In this document: positions 29,790 to 40,434 of the stretch, in pieces
Layout of the letters: the number at the start of each line of letters is the position of its first letter
Position numbering within the stretch: position 1 is the first letter of the stretch
DNA from: an uncultured Opitutia bacterium
GTDB taxonomy: Bacteria; Verrucomicrobiota; Verrucomicrobiia; Opitutales; Opitutaceae
Assembly: GCA_903840415.1 (NCBI GenBank)
Contig: CAIMFY010000017.1
Coordinates: 124,001-188,000, forward strand
Direction: 5' to 3'
Length of the DNA: 64,000 nt
Notes under the pieces: generated by a model
The model's input: the letters and a program-made list of their open reading frames with translations, nothing else
What the model was told of the DNA's origin: nothing
Database searches by the model: none
Position numbers and translations under genes: made by a program

Positions 29790-31123
29790 ATACCACCTTG
29801 ATGCCCGCCTGCATTGTGCAGGAATCCACTGCGGCCCTGCTGGACCGCGCGCTCATCACCGCGTTTCTCGAAAACGTGCCCGACCACGTTTACTTCAAGG
29901 ACAGCGAGAGCCGTTTCATCGCCGTCAGCCGCTCCAAGGCCCGCCGCCACCATCTCACGCCGGAAGAAATGCTCGGCAAGCGCGACATCGATTTATTTGA
30001 CGCCGCCCACGCCGAGCGGGCGCGCGCCGACGAAGTATCGATCATGCGCACCGGCACGTCGGTGATCGAAAAACTTGAACACCTCACTTGGCCCGACGGC
30101 CACCAGACTTGGGCCGTCTCCAGCAAAATGCCGCTTCGCGACGAACGTGGCGACGTCATCGGCACTTTCGGCCTCACCCATGACGTGACCGCCGCCAAGC
30201 AATTGGAGATCGACTTGGAGAAAGCGCATCGGGCACTCGTCGATACGTCGCACGCCGCTGGCATGGCCGAAGTCGCGACCGGAGTGCTCCACAACGTCGG
30301 CAACGTGCTCACCAGCCTCAACGTCTCCGCCACGATTCTGGCCACGGGTCTCCGTGAATCGAAAGTCGGCAGCCTCGTGAAACTCTCCGCGCTCCTGCAG
30401 GATCACTCTCACGACCTCGGCGAGTTCCTCACACACGATCCCAAGGGCCGCCGCGTGCCGGAATTTCTCGAGTCGCTCGCCGCACACTCCGTGGCCGAAC
30501 GCGACCGACTCCTCGCCGAGCTCGCGGCCATGCAGCAACACATCGATCACATCAAGGAGATCGTCTCGATGCAGCAGGCTTGCGCCACCATGGTCGGCGT
30601 CGTTGAACCACTCGCTCCGAACGCGTTGATGGAGGACGCCCTCCGCATGAACGCCGGGGCGCTCGTCCGCCACGACGTCCGCGTCGAACGTGAGTTCCAC
30701 TCCGCGCCGCACGTCATCGGTGAAAAAGCCAAGGTGCTCCAGATACTCGTGAATCTCATCCGCAACGCCAAATATGCCTGCGACGACGGTGGCCTGCCGG
30801 AAAAAATCCTCACCCTGCGCATCGAAACTAGCGCGGCGAATCGAGTCAGATTTGTCGTGCAGGATAACGGCGTCGGCATTCCCGCGGAAAATCTCACGCG
30901 CATCTTCGCGCACGGTTTTACCACCCGGAAAACCGGCCACGGCTTCGGCCTCCACTCCAGCGCCAATGCCGCCCATGAAATGCACGGCACACTCACCGCC
31001 GCCAGCGCCGGCCCCGGCCGTGGCGCCACGTTCACGCTCGAACTCCCCGCCACCAACGAAAGCACCACGACGACCAGTCCCAGTGCCGCGCCCAGCGGCG
31101 ATACAACCACCACAAAATTTTAG
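29786..31123 (+). CDS. PAS-domain histidine kinase with atypical H box (copy 2 of tandem pair)
   Basis: 445 residues, paralogous to the preceding gene. The PAS domain contains VYFKDSESRFIAVSRSKA and VIGTFGLTHDVT; the acceptor His169 is in GVLHNVGNVLTSLN; the HATPase has LIRNAKYACDD, DNGVGIP and GFGLHSSANAAHEMHG. The kinase core is nearly identical between the copies while the PAS and C-terminal tails differ more, fitting two sensors feeding one pathway. The C-terminus is a Thr/Ser-rich tail. It ends tail-to-tail, overlapping the convergent Aas-type gene by 4 bases. No dedicated response regulator gene follows. Confidence 0.9.
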   Translation: MNTTLMPACIVQESTAALLDRALITAFLENVPDHVYFKDSESRFIAVSRSKARRHHLTPEEMLGKRDIDLFDAAHAERARADEVSIMRTGTSVIEKLEHLTWPDGHQTWAVSSKMPLRDERGDVIGTFGLTHDVTAAKQLEIDLEKAHRALVDTSHAAGMAEVATGVLHNVGNVLTSLNVSATILATGLRESKVGSLVKLSALLQDHSHDLGEFLTHDPKGRRVPEFLESLAAHSVAERDRLLAELAAMQQHIDHIKEIVSMQQACATMVGVVEPLAPNALMEDALRMNAGALVRHDVRVEREFHSAPHVIGEKAKVLQILVNLIRNAKYACDDGGLPEKILTLRIETSAANRVRFVVQDNGVGIPAENLTRIFAHGFTTRKTGHGFGLHSSANAAHEMHGTLTAASAGPGRGATFTLELPATNESTTTTSPSAAPSGDTTTTKF

Positions 31124-33354
31124 CCCTTTGCCGGCAACATCGCGAGCTCGCGGCAGTGTTTCAAATCGAGTTTGCCGGTGCCTAGGACCGGAATTTTTTC
31201 CACGCGCCGGATGATTCTCGGCACCCAAAGCCCCGTGAGTCCGGCGTCATGCAGTTTGGTTCGCACTTCATCGATCGTCAGTGGAAGGGTCGTCAGCAGC
31301 ACTAGCGCTTCGCCTTTCACCGCATCAGGCACACCCATCACAACGGCCGCGTAGCCCGCAGTCTCGTCGATCTCAAACACCTCCACGATTTTCTGTTCGA
31401 TCGTGCCGTGCGGCACCATTTCGCCGCCGATTTTGGAAAAGCGCGACAAGCGGCCCTCGATGTAGAGAAATCCGTCGTGATCAAAGCGCCCAAGATCACC
31501 GGTTACGAACCAGCCATCGCGGAAAGCCGCCCGCGTCTTGGCCACGTCATCAAGGTAACCCTCGAACACGTTCGCGCCCTTGAAGAGCACGATGCCGGTC
31601 TCGGTATCGGGTAGTTCGCGACCCGTGTCGGGATCGATGATGCGCGCGGTGATGCCGGGCATCAGCCGGCCCACAGCGCCGGCTTTCTTCCCGAGTTGTG
31701 GTTCGCCAGTGCTCGTGACGATCGGCGGATGCGGCTGATTGATGTTGGTCGCGGGAGTCGTCTCCGTGAGTCCGTAGCCTTGGAGAATCTCAATGTGAAA
31801 CGCCGTGTGAAACGCCCGAAAGAGATCGTCGGGGAGTTTTTCAGCGCCGGTCACGACAAGGTCGAGCGAGCGCAACTCGCCAGGCTGCGCCTTTTTCAAA
31901 ATGGGGCGGATGAACGTCGGCGCACCGAGTAGCACGGTCGCCTGTTCGTCCCGAATCGCATCGATAATTTTGCGCGTGTCGAGCGGGCTCGGCACGGTCA
32001 CCACCTGACATCCGCGCAGCATCGGATACCAGAGTGTGACCGTGAACCCGAAACTGTGAAACACCGGCAGGCAGCCGAGTAGCGAACACGTTTCCGGCAA
32101 AATCGAGAGCGACGAAATCTGTGAGCAGTTCGCGAGGATGTTGCGGTGCGAGAGGATGACGCCCTTCGGCTCGCCCGAACTTCCGCTCGTGAACAGCAAC
32201 CCCGCTTCGGCGCGATCACCGACGCACGGCAAACCGAGCAGCGAGGCGCACCACTGGTTCGGCAGGATCCACGCGGCGATGAGCCAGGGCAGCATGCCGC
32301 GCTTGCCGCCGGCCGCCGCCAGCTCAGCCCGCAAATCGAGGGTGCGCTCGGGCCACGGAAAATTTGGCAGTTTCGACTTCATCGCGTCCGCCGTAATCAC
32401 GGTCTTGATGCCGCCAATCTGGATGCTCGACTCGATCGCCACCCGGCCCCCGGTGAAGTTGAGGTTCACGGGCGTCTTGCCCGCGATCAGGATGGCGAGA
32501 TTCGCGATGAACGCCCCCGCGCCCGGCGGCAGCACCACGCCGATCCGTGCCTCCGGCAGTGTCGCCCGCACCCGGCGGGACAGCGCCGCCGCCGCCGCGT
32601 AAAGCTGCGCGCACTTAATCACGCGCCGCTCTGCCGTGCGATCGACGATGATGATGCGCCACGGATGCTTCGTCAGGGTGCGCACGCACTCGCGGCCAAC
32701 ATGCCGCCGCAAAATCGGCCGCTCATGAAACGCCTCGCACCCGAGATCGAGCAACGCGCGCCGAGCCCACGCCAGGCCGACTTCCGACGGCGGCGTCGGT
32801 TTACCAAACGCGATGAAGACATGCGTCGGCATCAGGCGCGGCGATTTCCAGATATACTTGTTGCCCGCAAACGAAAACACCGAGCCCCACAGACCGTCGA
32901 TGGACGCCGGCACGACGGGCACGCCGGCCTGCCGCGCGATCAGCTCGAAGCCCTTCTTGATTTCCATCAGCTGGCCCGTGCGCGAGATGTGCCCCTCGGG
33001 GCAGAGGCAGACGACCTCGCCGGCCTTGAGCGCCTTCACCGCCTGCCGCATGCCCTCGAGCGGCTGCTGCGACGAAATCGGAATCGTGCCGCTGACGTCG
33101 AAACACCAGTTGAAAAAAGGACTGCGCTTCAACCCCCGATGGCCGAGGTAGCGAATCGGTCGCGGGCACACCAACTGCAGCACGCACACGTCGACATAGG
33201 AAATGTGGTTCGCGATCAGCAGCACGCCGCCCGTCGCGGGAAAGTGCTGGAGGCCGCTCGTCCGCACGCGGTAAAGCATCCGCACCACGACGCGCGCAAT
33301 GATTTCGAGATAAAACGGCAAGTTGGAGCGCCGGCGGATGACGGGGTAAGACAT
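31120..33354 (-). CDS. aas: Fused 1-acylglycerophosphate acyltransferase / acyl-ACP synthetase (Aas-like)
   Basis: About 744 residues from ATG 33354. An N-terminal PlsC-type domain has the HX4D motif NHISYVD and CPEGHISRTGQL. A C-terminal adenylate-forming domain has LLFTSGSSGEPKGVILSHRN, YGLTETTPATN and DGWFVTGDLGRFDHDGFLY. In E. coli, Aas re-acylates lysophospholipids and activates free fatty acids to acyl-ACP at the inner membrane. No LplT-type lysophospholipid flippase is adjacent, unlike the aas-lplT operon. An upstream TTG/ATG extension to 33396 is possible but adds only about 14 unconserved residues. Confidence 0.88.
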   Translation of the reverse strand: MSYPVIRRRSNLPFYLEIIARVVVRMLYRVRTSGLQHFPATGGVLLIANHISYVDVCVLQLVCPRPIRYLGHRGLKRSPFFNWCFDVSGTIPISSQQPLEGMRQAVKALKAGEVVCLCPEGHISRTGQLMEIKKGFELIARQAGVPVVPASIDGLWGSVFSFAGNKYIWKSPRLMPTHVFIAFGKPTPPSEVGLAWARRALLDLGCEAFHERPILRRHVGRECVRTLTKHPWRIIIVDRTAERRVIKCAQLYAAAAALSRRVRATLPEARIGVVLPPGAGAFIANLAILIAGKTPVNLNFTGGRVAIESSIQIGGIKTVITADAMKSKLPNFPWPERTLDLRAELAAAGGKRGMLPWLIAAWILPNQWCASLLGLPCVGDRAEAGLLFTSGSSGEPKGVILSHRNILANCSQISSLSILPETCSLLGCLPVFHSFGFTVTLWYPMLRGCQVVTVPSPLDTRKIIDAIRDEQATVLLGAPTFIRPILKKAQPGELRSLDLVVTGAEKLPDDLFRAFHTAFHIEILQGYGLTETTPATNINQPHPPIVTSTGEPQLGKKAGAVGRLMPGITARIIDPDTGRELPDTETGIVLFKGANVFEGYLDDVAKTRAAFRDGWFVTGDLGRFDHDGFLYIEGRLSRFSKIGGEMVPHGTIEQKIVEVFEIDETAGYAAVVMGVPDAVKGEALVLLTTLPLTIDEVRTKLHDAGLTGLWVPRIIRRVEKIPVLGTGKLDLKHCRELAMLPAKG

Positions 33355-33421
33355 GAACGCACCAACTTTATGCCGATCAATGCAACTGGGGTTCAAAGCA
33401 ATTTTTTCGGTGGCCCATTGA

Positions 33422-33949
33422 TCACGGGAAGGCCTGGCCGTCCAGCAACACGCGTTTGATATAAAGTCGGTGGGAGCGACTCACCGACACTTCGATTTCC
33501 ATCACCTTAAATTTTGGCGCGCCCTTCCCTTCCGGAACGAAGTAACGCTCGATGCCATAATCAATGCGACTGCCCGCGCTTGCGCCCCTCGCGCCGTAGC
33601 CCAGCGTGCCACGGACGAGCACCTGGCCCGGATTCGGCGTCAATCGCTCACTACTCGCTTGCGCTACGACATGGTAGCGTTCCCGCGGCTCCAGCAACAC
33701 CCACACGTCCCGGCCGCTGTCCGCATTCGCACCCGCTTTGGTCGCCATGCCACCGACCATCGCTTCGCTGATATCGTAGCGTAGCGTCAGATAGTCGCCA
33801 CGCAGCAGATCCTGCGGATCGACCGGACGTCCTTTCAGGACGAGCGTCGGCGCAGTCTGACGGACCACTTCTTGATAACCGGCCCACGCGAGCAGAAACA
33901 ACGCCTGCGCCGCGACGATCGTCCAAAACATCTTGGTCGTCCGATTCAC
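33422..33949 (-). CDS. GDYXXLXY-motif protein
   Basis: 175 residues with one N-terminal membrane anchor (WTIVAAQALFLLAWAGY). The soluble part contains LRGDYLTLRYDI, the motif that names this family, and is otherwise beta-rich. It is usually encoded directly downstream of a DUF2157 or DUF4401 membrane protein, exactly as here: its start overlaps the DUF2157 stop by 4 bases. Function is unknown; a periplasmic domain anchored beside a membrane partner is the likely arrangement. Confidence 0.82.
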   Translation of the reverse strand: MNRTTKMFWTIVAAQALFLLAWAGYQEVVRQTAPTLVLKGRPVDPQDLLRGDYLTLRYDISEAMVGGMATKAGANADSGRDVWVLLEPRERYHVVAQASSERLTPNPGQVLVRGTLGYGARGASAGSRIDYGIERYFVPEGKGAPKFKVMEIEVSVSRSHRLYIKRVLLDGQAFP

Positions 33950-35157
33950 GGTGCCACCTCCTGCCGCGCGCTGTCCACGAGCGCCCGGCGTTTGTGTTCA
34001 AGATAATAGCCCAACCCCAGCACCAGCAAACCCGTCATGATGAAAAACACGCCGCCTTCTAACATCGTGCCGAAAAGCAAAAAATAACGGGTAATAATGT
34101 TCAGCGCCATGCCGGCCATCCCAAGGTTGATCCAACTCTCCCGCCCCGATGCGAGGCCGATTCGAATCATCCCAAGATTTACGAGAAACAACGCCAGGCA
34201 CGCGAAGCCACCCCACAGCCAGCTAGCGTCGTGCAGTTCGATCCCGAACAAAGTCGCAATCGCCGGAACAAATCCCAACGCGAGATACCACGCGAGCGAC
34301 GTCAGTGCGGTGCGATTTCGCCACCACACCCAAACCGCCACGAGCGCCGCGAGCAGCATCAGCACCACCACCGGCTCAGTCCGTGCTGCCAGCGCCGGCT
34401 GAACAAAAATATTGTGCGCTGACCAGCTGAACCCGAGCACATAAAGCGACCAACAGCTTAGGATGAGCCCGAGCTTCTCATGCAGCGCCGCAAACTGCTC
34501 GTGGCGTCCACGGCGCAGTCCGAATCCGAACAGTGTGAGCGTGACTCCCACCAAAAACACCGCGCCGGCCATCAACTGAAACTCACTGCGGCCATCCCAC
34601 CGCACTTGGTTTTCCAGAAGCCGCAACCAAGAGTCGCGCGCGGACAGCTCCGTCGCAAACCAGGTCGTTCCGGCCAGCACGCTGACGAGTTGCATCAACT
34701 TTGATCGGGTCAACCAAGGCAACGCCACGATGCCCACCCACCAGAGCAGCACGCCGTTGGGTGGGCGGCTGTCGATGTGGAAAATTTGACTCACCAGCGC
34801 AATCCCGAGCAGGAAAAACATTGCGCCGACCGCCAAGCACGCCTCGCCGGACTTCGGGAAATTTCCCGGTGCGATCTTCAGCCTCCAGCCGAGGCCGTAG
34901 GCGCCCGCCAGCAGTGCGACGAGCCCCGAAATTTTCACCCAGTCACCGATCGCTTCCCAGTTGGACTTGATGATCAGGCTCACGCCGACCACCAGAAGCG
35001 TTCCGCCGATGCCCGCCAGAATCGCCAGAAACCGATGCGCTCCACCCGATCGCAACGGATGCCGCGCGAGCAACAGCGTACGTTGATTGGTCGTAATCAA
35101 ACCTTCGCCGACCCAGGCGGATGTTTCCCGCACCAACTGCTCCTCGAAGGATTTCAT
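33946..35157 (-). CDS. DUF2157 multi-pass membrane protein
   Basis: 403 residues with a soluble N-terminal segment (about 50 residues containing FEEQLVRETSAWV) and then about ten hydrophobic helices, including RFLAILAGIGGTLLVVGVSL. This matches DUF2157. The family has no known activity. It lies between the MarR gene (33 bases upstream) and the GDYXXLXY gene (4-base overlap), and all three read the same way, so the MarR protein may control the pair. Confidence 0.85.
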   Translation of the reverse strand: MKSFEEQLVRETSAWVGEGLITTNQRTLLLARHPLRSGGAHRFLAILAGIGGTLLVVGVSLIIKSNWEAIGDWVKISGLVALLAGAYGLGWRLKIAPGNFPKSGEACLAVGAMFFLLGIALVSQIFHIDSRPPNGVLLWWVGIVALPWLTRSKLMQLVSVLAGTTWFATELSARDSWLRLLENQVRWDGRSEFQLMAGAVFLVGVTLTLFGFGLRRGRHEQFAALHEKLGLILSCWSLYVLGFSWSAHNIFVQPALAARTEPVVVLMLLAALVAVWVWWRNRTALTSLAWYLALGFVPAIATLFGIELHDASWLWGGFACLALFLVNLGMIRIGLASGRESWINLGMAGMALNIITRYFLLFGTMLEGGVFFIMTGLLVLGLGYYLEHKRRALVDSARQEVAP

Positions 35158-35190
35158 GGCATCGTTTGATTCAAAGCGGATCGTCGGCCG

Positions 35191-35640
35191 TCACGTTTCT
35201 GGCAGCTTCCAGTTGCCAGCGTGCGCTTCGAGCGTCTGGAGCCAGGCGATACAATCCCTCCTCTGCCGCACCGTCAGCGGCCGGGCCACTTGCTCAACCA
35301 CGGCAAGATAACGCGGCTGCACTTCGCCCCACAACTGACGCCCGGCCACCGTGAGCAAAATCCGGTAGATTCGTCGATCCTTCGGGTGATCCGCGCGGCG
35401 CACCCAGCCCGCCTTTTCCAACCGATCTAGCAGCCCGGTGACGTTCGAGCGATCGACGACCAGCAAGTCGCCCAACTCGCGCTGGCTCAGCCCGGCCGGA
35501 CGTTCCGCGAGAATGTTTAGGACGTTGAACTGCGCTGCCGTCAGGCGGTATGGCCGGAACAGTCGCTGGCTCTCCCGCAGAAACGCATCGGCCGTCGCCA
35601 TGACAGCCGTGATCAATTCGTAGGCGGAAGAGGCAGGCAT
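35191..35640 (-). CDS. MarR-family transcriptional regulator (upstream of DUF2157 pair)
   Basis: 149 residues with a winged helix: YRLTAAQFNVLNILAERPAG, LSQRELGDLLVVDRSNVTGL, RLEKAGWVRRADHPKDRRIY and an arginine-containing wing. MarR proteins are dimeric and often autoregulate by binding palindromes near their own promoter. A perfect GTTGA-N4-TCAAC palindrome lies 24-37 bases upstream of this start, within the end of the TOPRIM gene. It sits between the ATPase/TOPRIM pair and the DUF2157 pair, so it could regulate either or both. Confidence 0.87.
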   Translation of the reverse strand: MPASSAYELITAVMATADAFLRESQRLFRPYRLTAAQFNVLNILAERPAGLSQRELGDLLVVDRSNVTGLLDRLEKAGWVRRADHPKDRRIYRILLTVAGRQLWGEVQPRYLAVVEQVARPLTVRQRRDCIAWLQTLEAHAGNWKLPET

Positions 35641-35663
35641 GGCCTACCGGTGTGATAGCAATG

Positions 35664-35677
35664 GTTGATATGTCAAC
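35664..35677. promoter_or_regulatory. Palindromic operator candidate for the MarR regulator
   Basis: GTTGATATGTCAAC is a perfect inverted repeat (5-base arms, 4-base centre), a form commonly bound by MarR dimers. It lies 24-37 bases upstream of the MarR start and overlaps the last codons and stop of the preceding TOPRIM-like gene. The surrounding 35655-35690 region is AT-richer than its neighbours. Confidence 0.55.
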
Positions 35678-36314
35678 TTTTAATTTGAGCGCCCGCCCTC
35701 AGATCGCCGGCCAGCGCCGCGAAGCCCGGAAAATCGTTTTCCAGTCGACGCAGATCGCGGCGGTGCCGCTGCACCTCGTGGAGCGCGCAGCAGGTTTCCT
35801 GAGGCAGCGACGGCCGATCGGTCCCATAGACCCGCCATTTCAGCTCTGCCCGCGAGTAAGGTTGCCGCCCACTCTCCTGCCCCACCAGCCACGCCGCCTC
35901 ACTTACCGCCTCATCGCGTCCGCACAGATACCACGCTTCAATCGCCGGCACGGCGATGCCGACGGCGCGCAACACCCGTGCGCGACCGTGGGCCGATGGT
36001 AATTTTTTGGCCGTTCGCCTGAACACCGCGCGCAGCTCACACATGCGACACTGCGGGTGAAAATAATCAGGTCGGTCATGCACGGCCGTATGCACGACTG
36101 AATCGTCCGAATCGACCACCACGACTAGCAGGTCGGTCTCGGTTTGAAAGTGGAGATGTCGAATCACGGCTGGCAGCACCTGCACCACATTGGGCCAGCC
36201 CCGGGCGCGGAAGCCCGGCGCCACTACCTGGGGCGCCGTCCCCAGCACCGCCTCGACCAGCACGCGGAGTGCCGCCTCATCCGCCGGCGATTCGCTCAGG
36301 AGCGCGACGTTCAC
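35673..36314 (-). CDS. TOPRIM-like nuclease candidate (DUF4276-like), second gene of ATPase/TOPRIM pair
   Basis: 213 residues from GTG 36314, whose GTGA overlap with the ATPase stop decides the start. The N-terminus VALLSESPADEAALRVLVEA has the acidic residue and SPADE pattern of TOPRIM-like DUF4276 proteins. DLLVVVVDSDDSVV at about 65-78 supplies a DxD metal-binding motif. Together they suggest an Mg-dependent nuclease fold. HPQCRMCELR further on is a CxxC pair. Two-gene pairs of an ABC/SMC-type ATPase plus a TOPRIM nuclease (PARIS AriA-AriB, OLD-type systems) act in phage defence; function here is inference from that comparison. Confidence 0.68.
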   Translation of the reverse strand: MNVALLSESPADEAALRVLVEAVLGTAPQVVAPGFRARGWPNVVQVLPAVIRHLHFQTETDLLVVVVDSDDSVVHTAVHDRPDYFHPQCRMCELRAVFRRTAKKLPSAHGRARVLRAVGIAVPAIEAWYLCGRDEAVSEAAWLVGQESGRQPYSRAELKWRVYGTDRPSLPQETCCALHEVQRHRRDLRRLENDFPGFAALAGDLRAGAQIKS

Positions 36315-37300
36315 TTTTCCTCCGGCACCCCGCCGAGAATCCCGCTGAACCACATGTCGCCCAGCGAACCCTCGCGCAGGAGTTCCTTCAGATCGGTGCG
36401 ATCAGTGAGCCGCTCGAACCGCGCTTCCCGGCCTTTTTTTTGCGCAATCACGACCTCTTCTGGATGCTCCCGAAAAAGATCAAGCATGGTAGGCGAATGG
36501 GTTGTCGCGATCACCTGCACCGGTTCGCGCGAGAGTTGAAATGATTTCGGATAACTCAGCCGGTAAAGCGCGTCGCGAATCTCCCGCAGCATCCGCGGAT
36601 GAATCCCACGATCGATTTCCTCGATGCACAGAATGGAAGGTGGCGCGGGATCGAAGGCCAGCGTGAGCACAGCCAGAGTGTAGAGCGTGCCTTGTGAAAG
36701 ATTTTCGGCGGCCACGATGTCGCGGTCGCCGAGTTTCAGTTCGAGGCCGACTGCGCCACCACCCCGATCGACGAGCTCAAGGGCGGTGAACTCTGGCAGG
36801 AGTCGCATGAACTCCCTCTTCAGATCGGCGAACACCTGCGGCGCCAACTTACGCCGCGTGGCAAGCACGGCGGCAAGATTGCCACCGTTCGACGCCAGTT
36901 CCGCGCCGTCCGCCCGTGGCGTCGCCGCCGCCATTGAATTATGGTCAAACAGATAGCTGCGGATGCGGGCGATTTCCGCCTTGAGCGCCGGCCAGCGGGG
37001 CGCGTTCGCCGGCACCACGTGCAGCATATCACAGACGAGTTCCGACACGCATCCGAGTCGCACCTCAATCGCCCTGTAGGGCCTGGTGAAGCGAAATCCC
37101 ATTTCTGGCCCATGGGTTTTGCTTGCCGGCGACGACGGACCGGCCAGCGGGAGTTTCGCCAACGAACGCAGCTGCAACAGCGCTTGGATCAGACTCGTCT
37201 TGCCGCTGCCGTTCGGGCCGATGATGAGGTTAAACGGCGCGAGTGCGAGGCTCGTGCCGCGCAACGCTTTGAAATTCCGAAATGCCACCGACGCAATCAC
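36311..37300 (-). CDS. ABC/SMC-like AAA ATPase, first gene of ATPase/TOPRIM pair
   Basis: 329 residues from GTG 37300, chosen because the conserved domain opens immediately after it (VAFRNFKALRG); a TTG at 37363 would add about 21 unconserved residues. Walker A GPNGSGKTS sits at about 28-36 and Walker B ILCIEEIDRGIHP has Glu227/Glu228. Signature-like residues lie in ENLSQGTLYTLAVL and the H-loop in VIATTHSPTMLDLF. This is the OLD/RloA/AAA_21-type ATPase architecture. It overlaps the TOPRIM gene by 4 bases, so the proteins are probably made in fixed ratio. In related defence pairs such an ATPase senses a phage trigger and releases the nuclease. Confidence 0.8.
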   Translation of the reverse strand: MIASVAFRNFKALRGTSLALAPFNLIIGPNGSGKTSLIQALLQLRSLAKLPLAGPSSPASKTHGPEMGFRFTRPYRAIEVRLGCVSELVCDMLHVVPANAPRWPALKAEIARIRSYLFDHNSMAAATPRADGAELASNGGNLAAVLATRRKLAPQVFADLKREFMRLLPEFTALELVDRGGGAVGLELKLGDRDIVAAENLSQGTLYTLAVLTLAFDPAPPSILCIEEIDRGIHPRMLREIRDALYRLSYPKSFQLSREPVQVIATTHSPTMLDLFREHPEEVVIAQKKGREARFERLTDRTDLKELLREGSLGDMWFSGILGGVPEEK

Positions 37301-37383
37301 AACGCAATGTGTGCGCTCTTCGCCCGCAACGCAACGCCGCACCGCGCTCACACTTCCGATCAATGCCCGACCGCGACGACAAA

Positions 37384-40300
37384 TTACTTTCCGCCGAAAA
37401 GTTTGTTCAGCAAGTCGGAGGCCTTGTCCTTCACGCCACCTTTTTCGAGCGCGAGGCTGGCAATGGCGTTGCTGAGTTCGCTGGTGTCGGGCGAGCCGAG
37501 CGTGCCCTTGACTTTCAACGGCAAGGTGCAGGCCGCGTAGCCGAGTGCGTCGGTCTGCGCTTCGAGCTTGTTGAGATATTTCAGCAGATCGCCGGTATGC
37601 CCGCGCGCTCTCAACTTGAACTCCATTGCGAGGGCCTCTTGGAGCAAGGGCGTGCCGGCGTGATGAGTGGTCTGCCCGCCACCCGTCAGCCGCATCTCAG
37701 GCGAGATGAGCGTGAAGTCTTTCAGCACGGTGTTGAGCGTGGCATCGCGGCTGAGCATCACATTGAGTTGATCGTAAGGAATCGCGGCAAACATTCTTGA
37801 AACCTCGGAGACGGCTTTCGCGGTGCTGGTAATCTCGGAGTCGTCCTTGCGCCCCTTGAGCGCGTCGAGGGCGCTGCCGACCATCGCCACGCTCGCGGCC
37901 AGCCGGCCGACGGCCTCGTTTTTTTCCGAAACCGACACGGGCAAACCGCGAAACACGCCGCCTTTGCTCGAGAGTTGAAAATCGCCGCGAGTGGTCGTTG
38001 AGAATTCGTCGAGCCGCGCCGCCGCGCCGGAGAGTTTGCTCGTGACGTTGAATTTTCCCTCGACGGTGGCTGGCTGCCCCGGGTTGAGCGCCTTAAAGAG
38101 AGGCGCCGGATCGAAGTCGGTGACGGCGAGATCGGCGTTGAGCGCGTAGGGTGCCACGGCGTTCGCGTCGAACGTCACCGCACCGGAAAATTTTGCGTCG
38201 CTGCCGTTGCCGAGCCCAGCGCGCATACCGTCGAACTTTACTGTCCCGGCGTCGATGCGCAGTGTGCCGGTGACTTCCGTCGCCTGAAACGTCCCCGAAT
38301 AGACGACCTCCTTTAACGCGAGTGCAATCTGGCCGCTAACACCAGCCCATGCCGGAGCGGCATCGCGCACTGGCGCGGTCGTCGATGAGGTGCTCGCGGA
38401 GGAAGGAACCGAGGCGGAAGTTGAGGCGAGCGGCGCCGCGAGGATTTTCACGTCCTCGATTACGAGCTTGGTGCTAGAAATGCGCGCGGCAATCGTCAGT
38501 CCCTTCGCGTCCGGGGTGAGCGTCCCGGCAAACACGAGGTCGGACTTGCGGCCGTCGCGATCGACGAGCAGCGGGGCGTTGAGCGTGATCTGGCCGTTGG
38601 CAGCACGGTCGGCGCGAAGATCCGCGGAAATTGCCGGGAGTTTTTCCGGCGTGAGTGTCGGATCGGTTTCGAGATTCGTGAAGGCGAGCTTCGTCTGAAT
38701 TTCCTGCGTGACGCCGAGGTTGGCCGCAAATTCGACCGCCGCATCGCCGCGCGTAAGCTGGACCGCGCCGCTCGCGACCGGCTGCGACAGCAACGCCGGC
38801 AACGCGGCGGAAATTTTTCCCGCCACTTTGATTGGTTGGTTAGGACCAGCGAGTTGGCCGGCTCGGGCTTCGAGCGTGAGCCACGCCGCTTCCCCGCTGC
38901 GAAATACCAGCGGCGCCGCCACCACCTGCCAGCCTTGTGGCGTGTAATCGACGGAGGCGTTGAGCGAGAGATCGACCTCGCGAAGCAGCGGCTTGCCAGC
39001 TTGTGCGACCGACACGCCCGCCGCCATGAGGGGCGCTTTCGGTCGCAGCGAAAATCCGCCGTCGGTCGCCGTCGCGACAAAGCCACCCTTCAAATCGCCT
39101 CCGGAGATAACGATATCCTTCATGAACGGCTGCGGCCACGCGAGCGGCACGCCGAGCAGCGTCACTGCGAAAAGATCGCGCGCCGGATCGGCGGCGGTCA
39201 GGCCGCGCGTCGCGTAATTGTAGGTGACGGTTTGCAGCGAGTTTACCGTCACCACCGGTCGCGCTCCGCTGATCTCCATGACGAAATGCTCGACACGAAT
39301 TTGGCCGGCGATCTGCGCAAGATCGAAGTCGGCCGTCAACCGGAGCGCGCCGAGGGCCGCTAGTTCCGGGCGGACGGCGGCGAGATTGTCCGAGGCCGCG
39401 CTGAGTTTTCCTTGGGCGTGCACTTCGGCGAAGCTCGCGTCGAAATCGAACTGCCCTTCGCCAGCCGCCACGAACGGCGGTGGCACTCGGCCGAGCACAA
39501 ACGGAGCGAGATCGGAATCGCGGGCATCGATTTTCCAAGTGCCGGCCAGCTTACGCGCGGCCAATGGAAAATCGGCGTGCACATCGACGAGTTGTTTCCC
39601 GGCGGTGGCGAGCGTGATCGCATAGGTCTCGCCGGCGGCGGTCCGCGTCGCAGTGGTGGCCGCCGAAAGTTTCACGCCGCGCGGAAACTGCGGACCGGAG
39701 GCAGTCGAATCGACCGTAACGCCGAATCGCGTAAACGAGCGCGGCGTGTCCATCGTAGCAGTGAACACGGCATTCGTCTCCAACGTCGAAACTGTCGTCG
39801 ACGTGAGAGAAGCTGTCAGGGCGAGCTCAAATCGCCCTTCGTGATTTTCGCTCAACCCACCGCCCGTGAGCGCGAACCGCGCATGCCCGCGCGCGGTCGG
39901 CAGGATAATCTCGCCAGCGAGATCAACACCGTCGAGCGCGAGATCGACCGGCAGGCCGAGTTGCGCAAAGAGACCTTGGAAAAGCTGCGCGGCAGCCGCG
40001 GCTGGCTCGGGCGCCCCGGCGCGGGCAGAAGTGAGGAGGGAAAACTCGGCGACAGCGGGCGAGCCAGGGCGATGATCACGATCAAAAATCTGGCCCACTT
40101 GCACAACCTTGGTGAGATCGAGCGTCCAGCCTTTCGCGACGAGGCGTGTGATGGTGATGCGATTCTTCAAGCCGGCCGCGAGTAACGGCAGTTCGACTTC
40201 GACCGCGGGCAGCGTCAGCACGGCGCCGCGGGATTCGACACGGAGATTTCTGATTTCGACGCGGCCCAATCCAGCGGCAACGGTGCCAAGGGTCGCACCC

Positions 40301-40434
40301 AGGGCGGGGCGCGAGGCCAGCGCCCGGCGCGCCGCCCATGTTTGCACTCGCGGGTTGAACGCAGCGACAACAGCGATGCCAAGCAGCACCGCCAGTGCGG
40401 CGGTGCCAACAAGGAGAAGCCGGACTAATTTCAT
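37384..40434 (-). CDS. AsmA-like large envelope protein
   Basis: 1016 residues with one N-terminal membrane anchor (LLLVGTAALAVLLGIAVVAAF) and a long beta-rich periplasmic part; AsmA-like segments include LRIDAGTVKFDGMRAGLGNG and SAKFSG-type repeats near the C-terminus. AsmA/DUF748 family proteins bridge the envelope and take part in lipid transport or outer-membrane maintenance. It is separated by about 140 bases from the TolC gene upstream on the same strand and about 80 bases from the ATPase gene downstream, so operon membership with the efflux genes is possible but not clear. Confidence 0.75.
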   Translation of the reverse strand: MKLVRLLLVGTAALAVLLGIAVVAAFNPRVQTWAARRALASRPALGATLGTVAAGLGRVEIRNLRVESRGAVLTLPAVEVELPLLAAGLKNRITITRLVAKGWTLDLTKVVQVGQIFDRDHRPGSPAVAEFSLLTSARAGAPEPAAAAAQLFQGLFAQLGLPVDLALDGVDLAGEIILPTARGHARFALTGGGLSENHEGRFELALTASLTSTTVSTLETNAVFTATMDTPRSFTRFGVTVDSTASGPQFPRGVKLSAATTATRTAAGETYAITLATAGKQLVDVHADFPLAARKLAGTWKIDARDSDLAPFVLGRVPPPFVAAGEGQFDFDASFAEVHAQGKLSAASDNLAAVRPELAALGALRLTADFDLAQIAGQIRVEHFVMEISGARPVVTVNSLQTVTYNYATRGLTAADPARDLFAVTLLGVPLAWPQPFMKDIVISGGDLKGGFVATATDGGFSLRPKAPLMAAGVSVAQAGKPLLREVDLSLNASVDYTPQGWQVVAAPLVFRSGEAAWLTLEARAGQLAGPNQPIKVAGKISAALPALLSQPVASGAVQLTRGDAAVEFAANLGVTQEIQTKLAFTNLETDPTLTPEKLPAISADLRADRAANGQITLNAPLLVDRDGRKSDLVFAGTLTPDAKGLTIAARISSTKLVIEDVKILAAPLASTSASVPSSASTSSTTAPVRDAAPAWAGVSGQIALALKEVVYSGTFQATEVTGTLRIDAGTVKFDGMRAGLGNGSDAKFSGAVTFDANAVAPYALNADLAVTDFDPAPLFKALNPGQPATVEGKFNVTSKLSGAAARLDEFSTTTRGDFQLSSKGGVFRGLPVSVSEKNEAVGRLAASVAMVGSALDALKGRKDDSEITSTAKAVSEVSRMFAAIPYDQLNVMLSRDATLNTVLKDFTLISPEMRLTGGGQTTHHAGTPLLQEALAMEFKLRARGHTGDLLKYLNKLEAQTDALGYAACTLPLKVKGTLGSPDTSELSNAIASLALEKGGVKDKASDLLNKLFGGK

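Follow-up and report, generated by a model that had tools for sequence, protein, structure and literature searches.

An overlapping OLD-type ATPase/TOPRIM-like gene pair, apparently inherited mainly vertically in one chromosomal slot of the Opitutaceae

Modules that combine an ABC ATPase with a TOPRIM protein are usually taken as mobile anti-phage systems. Whether such an immune module, once resident in a lineage, stays immune or joins genome maintenance is the question raised by a gene pair in the stretch of DNA analyzed here, 64,000 nucleotides from an uncultured Opitutia bacterium of the family Opitutaceae (positions 124,001 to 188,000 of contig CAIMFY010000017.1, assembly GCA_903840415.1), which we refer to as the window. 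With its settled position and its intact predicted catalytic site, the pair provides a test case. An earlier reading of the sequence, the original prediction, had described it as an SMC/OLD-type ATPase overlapping a DUF4276-like TOPRIM protein and had proposed that it may be an undescribed defense variant. Our results point, on a balance that is only slightly favorable, to a resident, mainly vertically inherited split OLD-type module whose likely role is the surveillance of foreign or damaged nucleic acid. What is unexpected is the evolutionary pattern: the pair holds a fixed slot and appears to be passed on mainly vertically within one family, whereas several relatives are found in defense islands.

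The two genes lie on the minus strand, and both begin with GTG. The upstream gene (36311-37300) encodes an ATPase of 329 amino acids, of the OLD/SMC type of ABC ATPases, and the downstream gene (35673-36314) encodes a partner of 213 amino acids that, judging from its residues and predicted structure, is OLD-type TOPRIM-like and a probable nuclease. The TGA stop codon of the ATPase gene and the GTG start codon of the partner gene share the four bases GTGA at 36311-36314; the original prediction had this overlap, the coordinates (35673-37300), the protein sizes, and the motifs right. A scan of genome contigs gave 171 candidate stretches, of which 135 were confirmed and 80 were kept as relatives. 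Both starts could be placed in 74 of these relatives, and 59 of the 74 have the identical 4-base overlap; this arrangement suggests that translation of the ATPase and that of the partner are coupled. The GTG start of the ATPase falls in the same alignment column as the starts of the relatives, an agreement that is partly circular because those starts were placed from that of the window. Residue counts below refer to 81 partners (the window and 80 relatives) and 75 ATPases (the window and the 74 placed relatives); the alignments used hand-chosen subsets (72 of 80 partners and 59 of 74 placed ATPases), and the motifs were then counted again over the full sets.

By its motifs and predicted model, the first protein is an OLD/SMC-like ABC ATPase, as had been claimed from its Walker A motif, Glu pair, and H-loop. 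It matches the Pfam families AAA_21 (1.1e-30) and AAA_15 (1.1e-18). Lys34 of Walker A, Gln203-Gly204 of the signature, Glu227-Glu228, and the D-loop residue His234 are conserved in 75/75 sequences, the Q-loop-like His120 in 72/75, and His268 of the H-loop in 70/75. His234 lies seven residues past Glu227, and the D-loop His283 of Ts OLD follows Glu276 at the same spacing (PMC7049728). The AlphaFold2 model (mean predicted local distance difference test score [pLDDT], 92.2) aligned in VIA-align with chains of PtuA, SMC, Rad50, AriA-AriB, and OLD proteins at Z scores of 16 to 18.5, among them Ts OLD (6p74; Z, 16.2; root mean square deviation [rmsd], 4.2; 222 residues) and a chain of the AriA-AriB complex (8v46_B; Z, 16.2).

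The partner had no Pfam or NCBIfam match at an E value of ≤1. The claim of a TOPRIM-type Glu and DxD motif was nevertheless borne out by conservation: Glu8, Asp12, Asp68, Asp70, Glu126, and Lys159 are identical in all 81 partners and in 4/4 more divergent family members. An Asp lies four residues after Glu8, the DxD motif begins 60 residues after Glu8, and Glu126 is 56 residues after Asp70. The acidic residues have the same order as, and similar spacing to, the metal ligands reported for Ts OLD (E377, D381, D431, D433, S478, and E480; PMC7049728), in which S478 corresponds to Ala124 of the partner by spacing rather than by a residue-level structure alignment. His75, His79, His86, Cys89, and Cys92 are also invariant (81/81), and this cluster may form a further metal site. 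The AlphaFold2 model, built from a 73-sequence alignment that includes the window, had a mean pLDDT of 90.1 and a predicted template modeling score of 0.87. Realignment of the best 999 Foldseek chains placed C-terminal regions from three OLD proteins in the first five ranks: 6njv (Z, 7.5; rmsd, 4.0; 154 residues), 6nk8_B (7.3), 6p74 (7.2), 6njw (7.1), and 6njx (7.0), with overall ranges for the OLD rows of Z 7.0 to 7.5, rmsd 4.0 to 4.5, and 134 to 156 residues. A sequence search of solved structures gave no match for the partner; HEC-01B proteins (see below) gave four weak matches by sequence, mostly to entries named as designed proteins. Together, the residues and the model indicate that the partner is probably TOPRIM-like and may well act as a nuclease.

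A PADLOC search, which the original prediction had proposed, identified the candidate system HEC-01 as the nearest named kind, and the pair is a divergent relative of it. The ATPase matches HEC-01A at 1.7e-38 over two stretches, in a library without a curated cutoff, and AriA more weakly (2.4e-30). The partner matches HEC-01B at 9e-6, covering residues 1 to 144 only; it is one of three PADLOC matches at an E value of ≤1, none of them AriB, whose models may not reach so divergent a protein. Of 73 partner family members, 42 reach the HEC-01B model PDLC04202 at 0.1. Eight HEC-01B proteins belonging to other families in the phylum were made into a profile, with which the partner family profile aligned (probability, 88.7; E value, 2.6e-6), and in this alignment Glu8, Asp68/Asp70, and Glu126 fall on conserved columns. 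The DUF4276-like label failed as a direct assignment, with 0/73 members matching PF14103 at an E value of ≤1. It is right at one remove, because the profile aligns to HEC-01B and one HEC-01B protein (L270) matches PF14103 at 8.6e-27; a second (L276) matches weakly at 0.0013, under the cutoff, these being the two of the eight that were scanned. Like HEC-01, the pair consists of two adjacent same-strand genes, an AAA_21-type ATPase followed by a small protein with an acidic site. It differs in that the partner is far from the models, in the invariant His/Cys cluster of the window's family, and in its inheritance in a single slot, in contrast to the dispersal of PDLC04202 among 13 of 288 genomes. 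A location in defense islands together with a patchy distribution, our own expectation for HEC-01 and not a formal definition, was not found for the pair. Literature searches on HEC-01 gave nothing on the system among the matches listed, and the string HEC is absent from two PADLOC papers, one of which describes the Hma system.

The pair is confined to one family in our samples. In a draw of 288 genomes of the phylum, the partner was found in 22, comprising 22 of the 25 genomes of the window's family (its own genome included) and 0 of the 263 others, and searching this draw with a profile again gave 22. The ATPase was found in 25, the same 22 and three elsewhere at 31 to 36% identity. Across the family, the partner was found in 164 of 252 genomes, in 108 of the 165 good ones, and in 37 of 49 genera, nearly always with one match each; the 164 include one weak match with a stop (genome G324) and some pieces, apparently at contig ends. 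Presence is patchy even inside genera. Of the 80 relatives, 79 are titled Verrucomicrobia, Opitutae, or a member group and one only bacterium, and the NCBI taxonomy places Lacunisphaera, Ereboglobus, Cephaloticoccus, and Didemnitutus in the Opitutaceae. Among candidate origins, tblastn searches gave no match on plasmids or phages and none of the 21 candidates from viral contigs was confirmed, in collections that may underrepresent elements of Opitutaceae. Literature searches combining Opitutaceae with both defense systems and phage, or with Toprim, found none; among the matches listed for Verrucomicrobiota, antiphage defense systems, and the OLD family, none concerned the pair by its title or the start of its abstract.

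The pair also keeps to one chromosomal slot. Its upstream edge in the window is a gene on the minus strand (37384-40434) for a protein of 1016 amino acids without a Pfam match at 1e-5, which we take to be AsmA-like, and its downstream edge, on the same strand (31120-33396), encodes an acyltransferase (Pfam, 2e-25) and AMP-binding ligase (Pfam, 2.4e-61) protein, here called AAS. The ATPase gene adjoins the partner gene in 78 of the 80 loci, four of which are cut by a contig end. AAS lies downstream on the same strand in 64 of the 69 loci with at least 3 kb of downstream sequence, on the other strand in 1, and was not found in 4. Upstream, 29 of the 65 loci with at least 4 kb carry an AsmA-like gene, 17 carry pot-like transporter genes, and 19 carry neither. 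The gap to the ATPase start is 39 to 208 bases from the AsmA stop (24 loci) and 12 to 274 bases from the PotA stop (15 loci), only gaps from -100 to 600 bases having been kept; from the partner stop to AAS it is 2 bases to 5.8 kb (66 loci). The slot was sought in 18 genomes, and 12 regions were examined. One of these (L205) has part of a partner gene where its contig stops and was left out of the empty slots. Eight of the other 11, in pairless genomes, have consecutive AsmA-like and AAS matches with no pair between them, separated by about 110 to 195 bases in four genomes and by 0.6 to 6 kb in four, and one of the short-gap empty slots belongs to a species that shares the window's genus. Of the remaining three, L207 lacks the pair and has MarR, DUF2157, GDYXXLXY, and AAS genes, and AAS alone was seen in L204 and L206. 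The 37 of 49 genera with the pair, together with its clean absence in sister species, offer natural matched pairs.

Distances of the partner follow those of RpoB over the 22 genomes (r, 0.72; rank, 0.66; 0/999 shuffles; 0.69 without the most divergent genome), in a comparison made by matched coordinates with a mean RpoB identity of 0.89. The neighbor AAS correlated with RpoB at 0.51 (17 genomes). An RpoB tree was made for 27 genomes, 22 with the pair and 5 without (a 28th had no RpoB match); on it, presence needs four changes, most simply ancestral presence followed by four losses; eight of the 24 inner branches of this tree are poorly supported, and the sample is nonrandom. The best explanation of these observations is that the pair was present in the Opitutaceae ancestor and was then inherited mainly vertically, with repeated losses.

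The more distant relatives have other surroundings. The HEC-01B model was found in 13 of the 288 genomes, in 12 genera and 10 families, and in none of the window's family at 1e-4. Ten proteins flanking such distant relatives, picked by eye from seven loci (five of the ten HEC-01B loci, L220, and L223), were HsdR (two), HsdS (two), AbiEii, AbiEi, two N6/N4 methylases, DUF1156, and McrBC; half of the ten HEC-01B loci are covered by these flanks. The suggestion of a defense variant stands in one part and not in another. In its favor are the nearest PADLOC models, both of candidate defense, and distant relatives near restriction genes. Against it, the orthologs occupy one slot in one family in our samples and track RpoB, and the window neighbors are nondefense genes. 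Orthologs were found almost only in nondefense contexts, which does not hold for the distant homologs. Domain architecture alone is insufficient to call defense.

In the reading that we slightly favor, a compact SMC/OLD-like ATPase and a separate TOPRIM-like nuclease would be coproduced via the overlapping stop and start codons, ancestrally between the AsmA-like gene and the AAS gene. Following a model drawn from OLD-type systems, the ATPase would dimerize on ATP, detect abnormal nucleic acid or signs of infection, and position or release the TOPRIM subunit. The latter would then cut DNA or RNA in a two-metal mechanism, with the ions held by Glu8/Asp12, Asp68/Asp70, and Glu126. Targets differ among OLD-type systems, as AriB cuts tRNA and Ts OLD cuts DNA (PMC7049728 for Ts OLD). 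We rank surveillance ahead of a housekeeping role because of the kinship to HEC-01, the distant relatives near defense genes, and the lack of the pair in roughly one family genome out of three.

Several observations weigh against this reading. No partner was detected in 88 of the 252 family genomes, 57 of them among the 165 good ones. The ATPase follows RpoB more weakly than the partner does (22 genomes; r, 0.53; rank, 0.34; 0/999 shuffles), and without the most divergent genome the values drop to 0.42 and 0.18. Foldseek with the partner model gave no PDB match at an E value of ≤0.001 and no OLD protein among the matches listed, and the OLD rows are tied by the rule of the alignment tool with the unrelated chains 4p1z_D (7.0; an Argonaute MID domain), 2p62_A (6.9), and 2b98_A (6.5). 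Because of these ties, and because Z scores under 8 are middling, the fold by itself is not decisive; the OLD-type TOPRIM reading is strengthened by the invariance of the acidic residues. In two genomes the partner has no ATPase gene beside it: one locus (L122:4208-4846) holds an intact partner with all catalytic residues and no adjacent ATPase, its genome having a weak ATPase match (7e-18), and genome G516 carries an intact partner (L130) and an intact orthologous ATPase (L279) on separate contigs, the pair thus being split in that genome. Finally, the window neighbors belong to envelope, transport, and regulator families, and five of them gave nothing in PADLOC at 0.001 beyond weak helix-turn-helix matches of a MarR-type regulator; this lack of defense genes weakens a surveillance role.

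A lesser but real possibility is that the pair has been domesticated for housekeeping in genome maintenance or the cell cycle and no longer serves defense, like archaeal Cran1. Cran1, a class 5 OLD protein of Sulfolobales that could not be deleted, shows that vertical, lineage-bound inheritance of an OLD protein can go with a nondefense role, and restriction to one clade, vertical inheritance, and a conserved neighborhood are the pattern behind its authors' search for a nondefense role (PMC12796447). The pair shares these features; it differs as a split bacterial pair, missing from about a third of its family, whereas Cran1 is a single fused archaeal protein. The compact same-strand run formed with the neighbors, with its short gaps from AsmA or PotA to the ATPase, is in line with domestication, as are the higher mean identity of the partner (0.68, against 0.53 for the ATPase, over the 22 genomes) and the metabolic families that lead the flanks of the 19 relatives with neither an AsmA-like nor a pot-like gene upstream. 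Against domestication, the pair is dispensable rather than essential, since 88 of the 252 family genomes gave no partner and a species of the window's genus is cleanly without the pair, and several distant relatives stand beside restriction genes. With the same lesser but real weight, the pair may be a bacterial counterpart of Cran1, a housekeeping or stress response module acquired once by the Opitutaceae ancestor from a HEC-01-like defense system.

It is improbable that the pair is an ordinary mobile two-gene anti-phage system of the PARIS or HEC-01 kind, recently transferred into a hotspot and by chance common in the family. The similarity to HEC-01A/B would agree with this, as would the patchiness within genera and the other genes that come and go in the slot. 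The partner, however, has no match outside the family in the 288 phylum genomes or on plasmids, phages, or viral contigs, its distances follow RpoB, and it occupies a single slot. Least of all do we expect a toxin-antitoxin pair, with the TOPRIM protein as the toxin and the ATPase holding it in check: the genes do overlap, the Pfam description of AAA_21 names the AbiEii toxin, and a small DNA-binding MarR protein is encoded next door, but the ATPase retains full ATPase motifs, MarR is adjacent in only 14 of the 80 relatives, and the intact partners that persist in L122 (weak ATPase only) and L130 (ATPase on another contig) argue against a toxin needing a co-made antitoxin.

Among known systems, the pair is built like the split OLD systems, and the shared logic with PARIS and OLD-like systems noted in the original prediction was correctly recognized. 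PARIS (AriA plus AriB), a proposed class 4 OLD (PMC10568477), also has its ATPase and TOPRIM on separate genes, but the ATPase is closer to HEC-01A than to AriA and the pair has no match in phage or viral collections. Class 1 and 2 OLD proteins (P2 Old, Ts OLD, and GajA) appear to share the ATPase motifs, including the D-loop His, the TOPRIM residues, and, less clearly, the predicted fold, and differ in being fused single proteins. Class 2 OLD has a helicase gene downstream (PMC7049728), unlike the pair, which has none among its annotated window neighbors. Similarity to MADS is seen in matches of the ATPase to mad3 (1.3e-24) and of 11 of 73 partners to mad4 at 0.1, but the NCBIfam MAD3 cutoff of 420 was not reached (85.3 bits), and the five scanned neighbors lack a MADS model match at 0.001; the papers listed in a literature search on MADS were unrelated.

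Other loci of the phylum carry related gene pairs. A family member with 7% reported contamination (G391) has a second ATPase/partner pair, about 34% identical (L220:7248-9946), some 27 bases after a McrBC-family gene; this pair may be foreign. Its partner keeps the columns of His75 and His86 and lacks those of His79, Cys89, and Cys92. At L276:4914-11972, a HEC-01 pair is accompanied by a second AAA_21 ATPase (420 amino acids) with a 209-amino-acid protein lacking a Pfam match at 0.01, and a DUF1156 protein of 1073 amino acids sits between the two ATPase/small-protein pairs. Three phylum ATPases of 25 to 36% identity (L221, L222, and L223) end in LG(D/N)LW...GG like that of the window, each followed by a small partner-like frame, which in L223 is split over two overlapping frames; L223 adjoins a DNA methylase.

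Between the partner and AAS in the window, all on the minus strand, lie a gene for a MarR-type regulator (35191-35640; Pfam MarR, 4.1e-17), 32 bases downstream of the partner, and genes for GDYXXLXY and DUF2157 membrane proteins (33422-35157; PF14345, 1.7e-25; PF09925, 2.2e-30). MarR adjoins the partner in the 14 relatives mentioned above and in the divergent family members L224, L225, and L226, so it may possibly have been the third gene of an ancestral set. GDYXXLXY and DUF2157, present in a minority of relatives, are variable cargo of the slot and probably lie outside the module. From the flanks of the 19 relatives that have neither upstream gene, 92 frames of 150 amino acids or more were pooled, some of which are surely not genes; no restriction, toxin, or CRISPR PADLOC model matched them at 1e-10. 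The 25 Pfam families listed, of 63, are led by AAS families and metabolic ones, with ThiF found in a single member. At the PADLOC threshold, the only matches were to E1-E2 models (best, 1.9e-19) and argonaute-type models (best, 1.8e-15), in one member each, and the argonaute-type frame is possibly one defense gene near a relative of the pair. The slot itself (31120-40434 in the window) is variable, in that pot-like genes, MarR/DUF2157/GDYXXLXY, and others come and go between the same edges.

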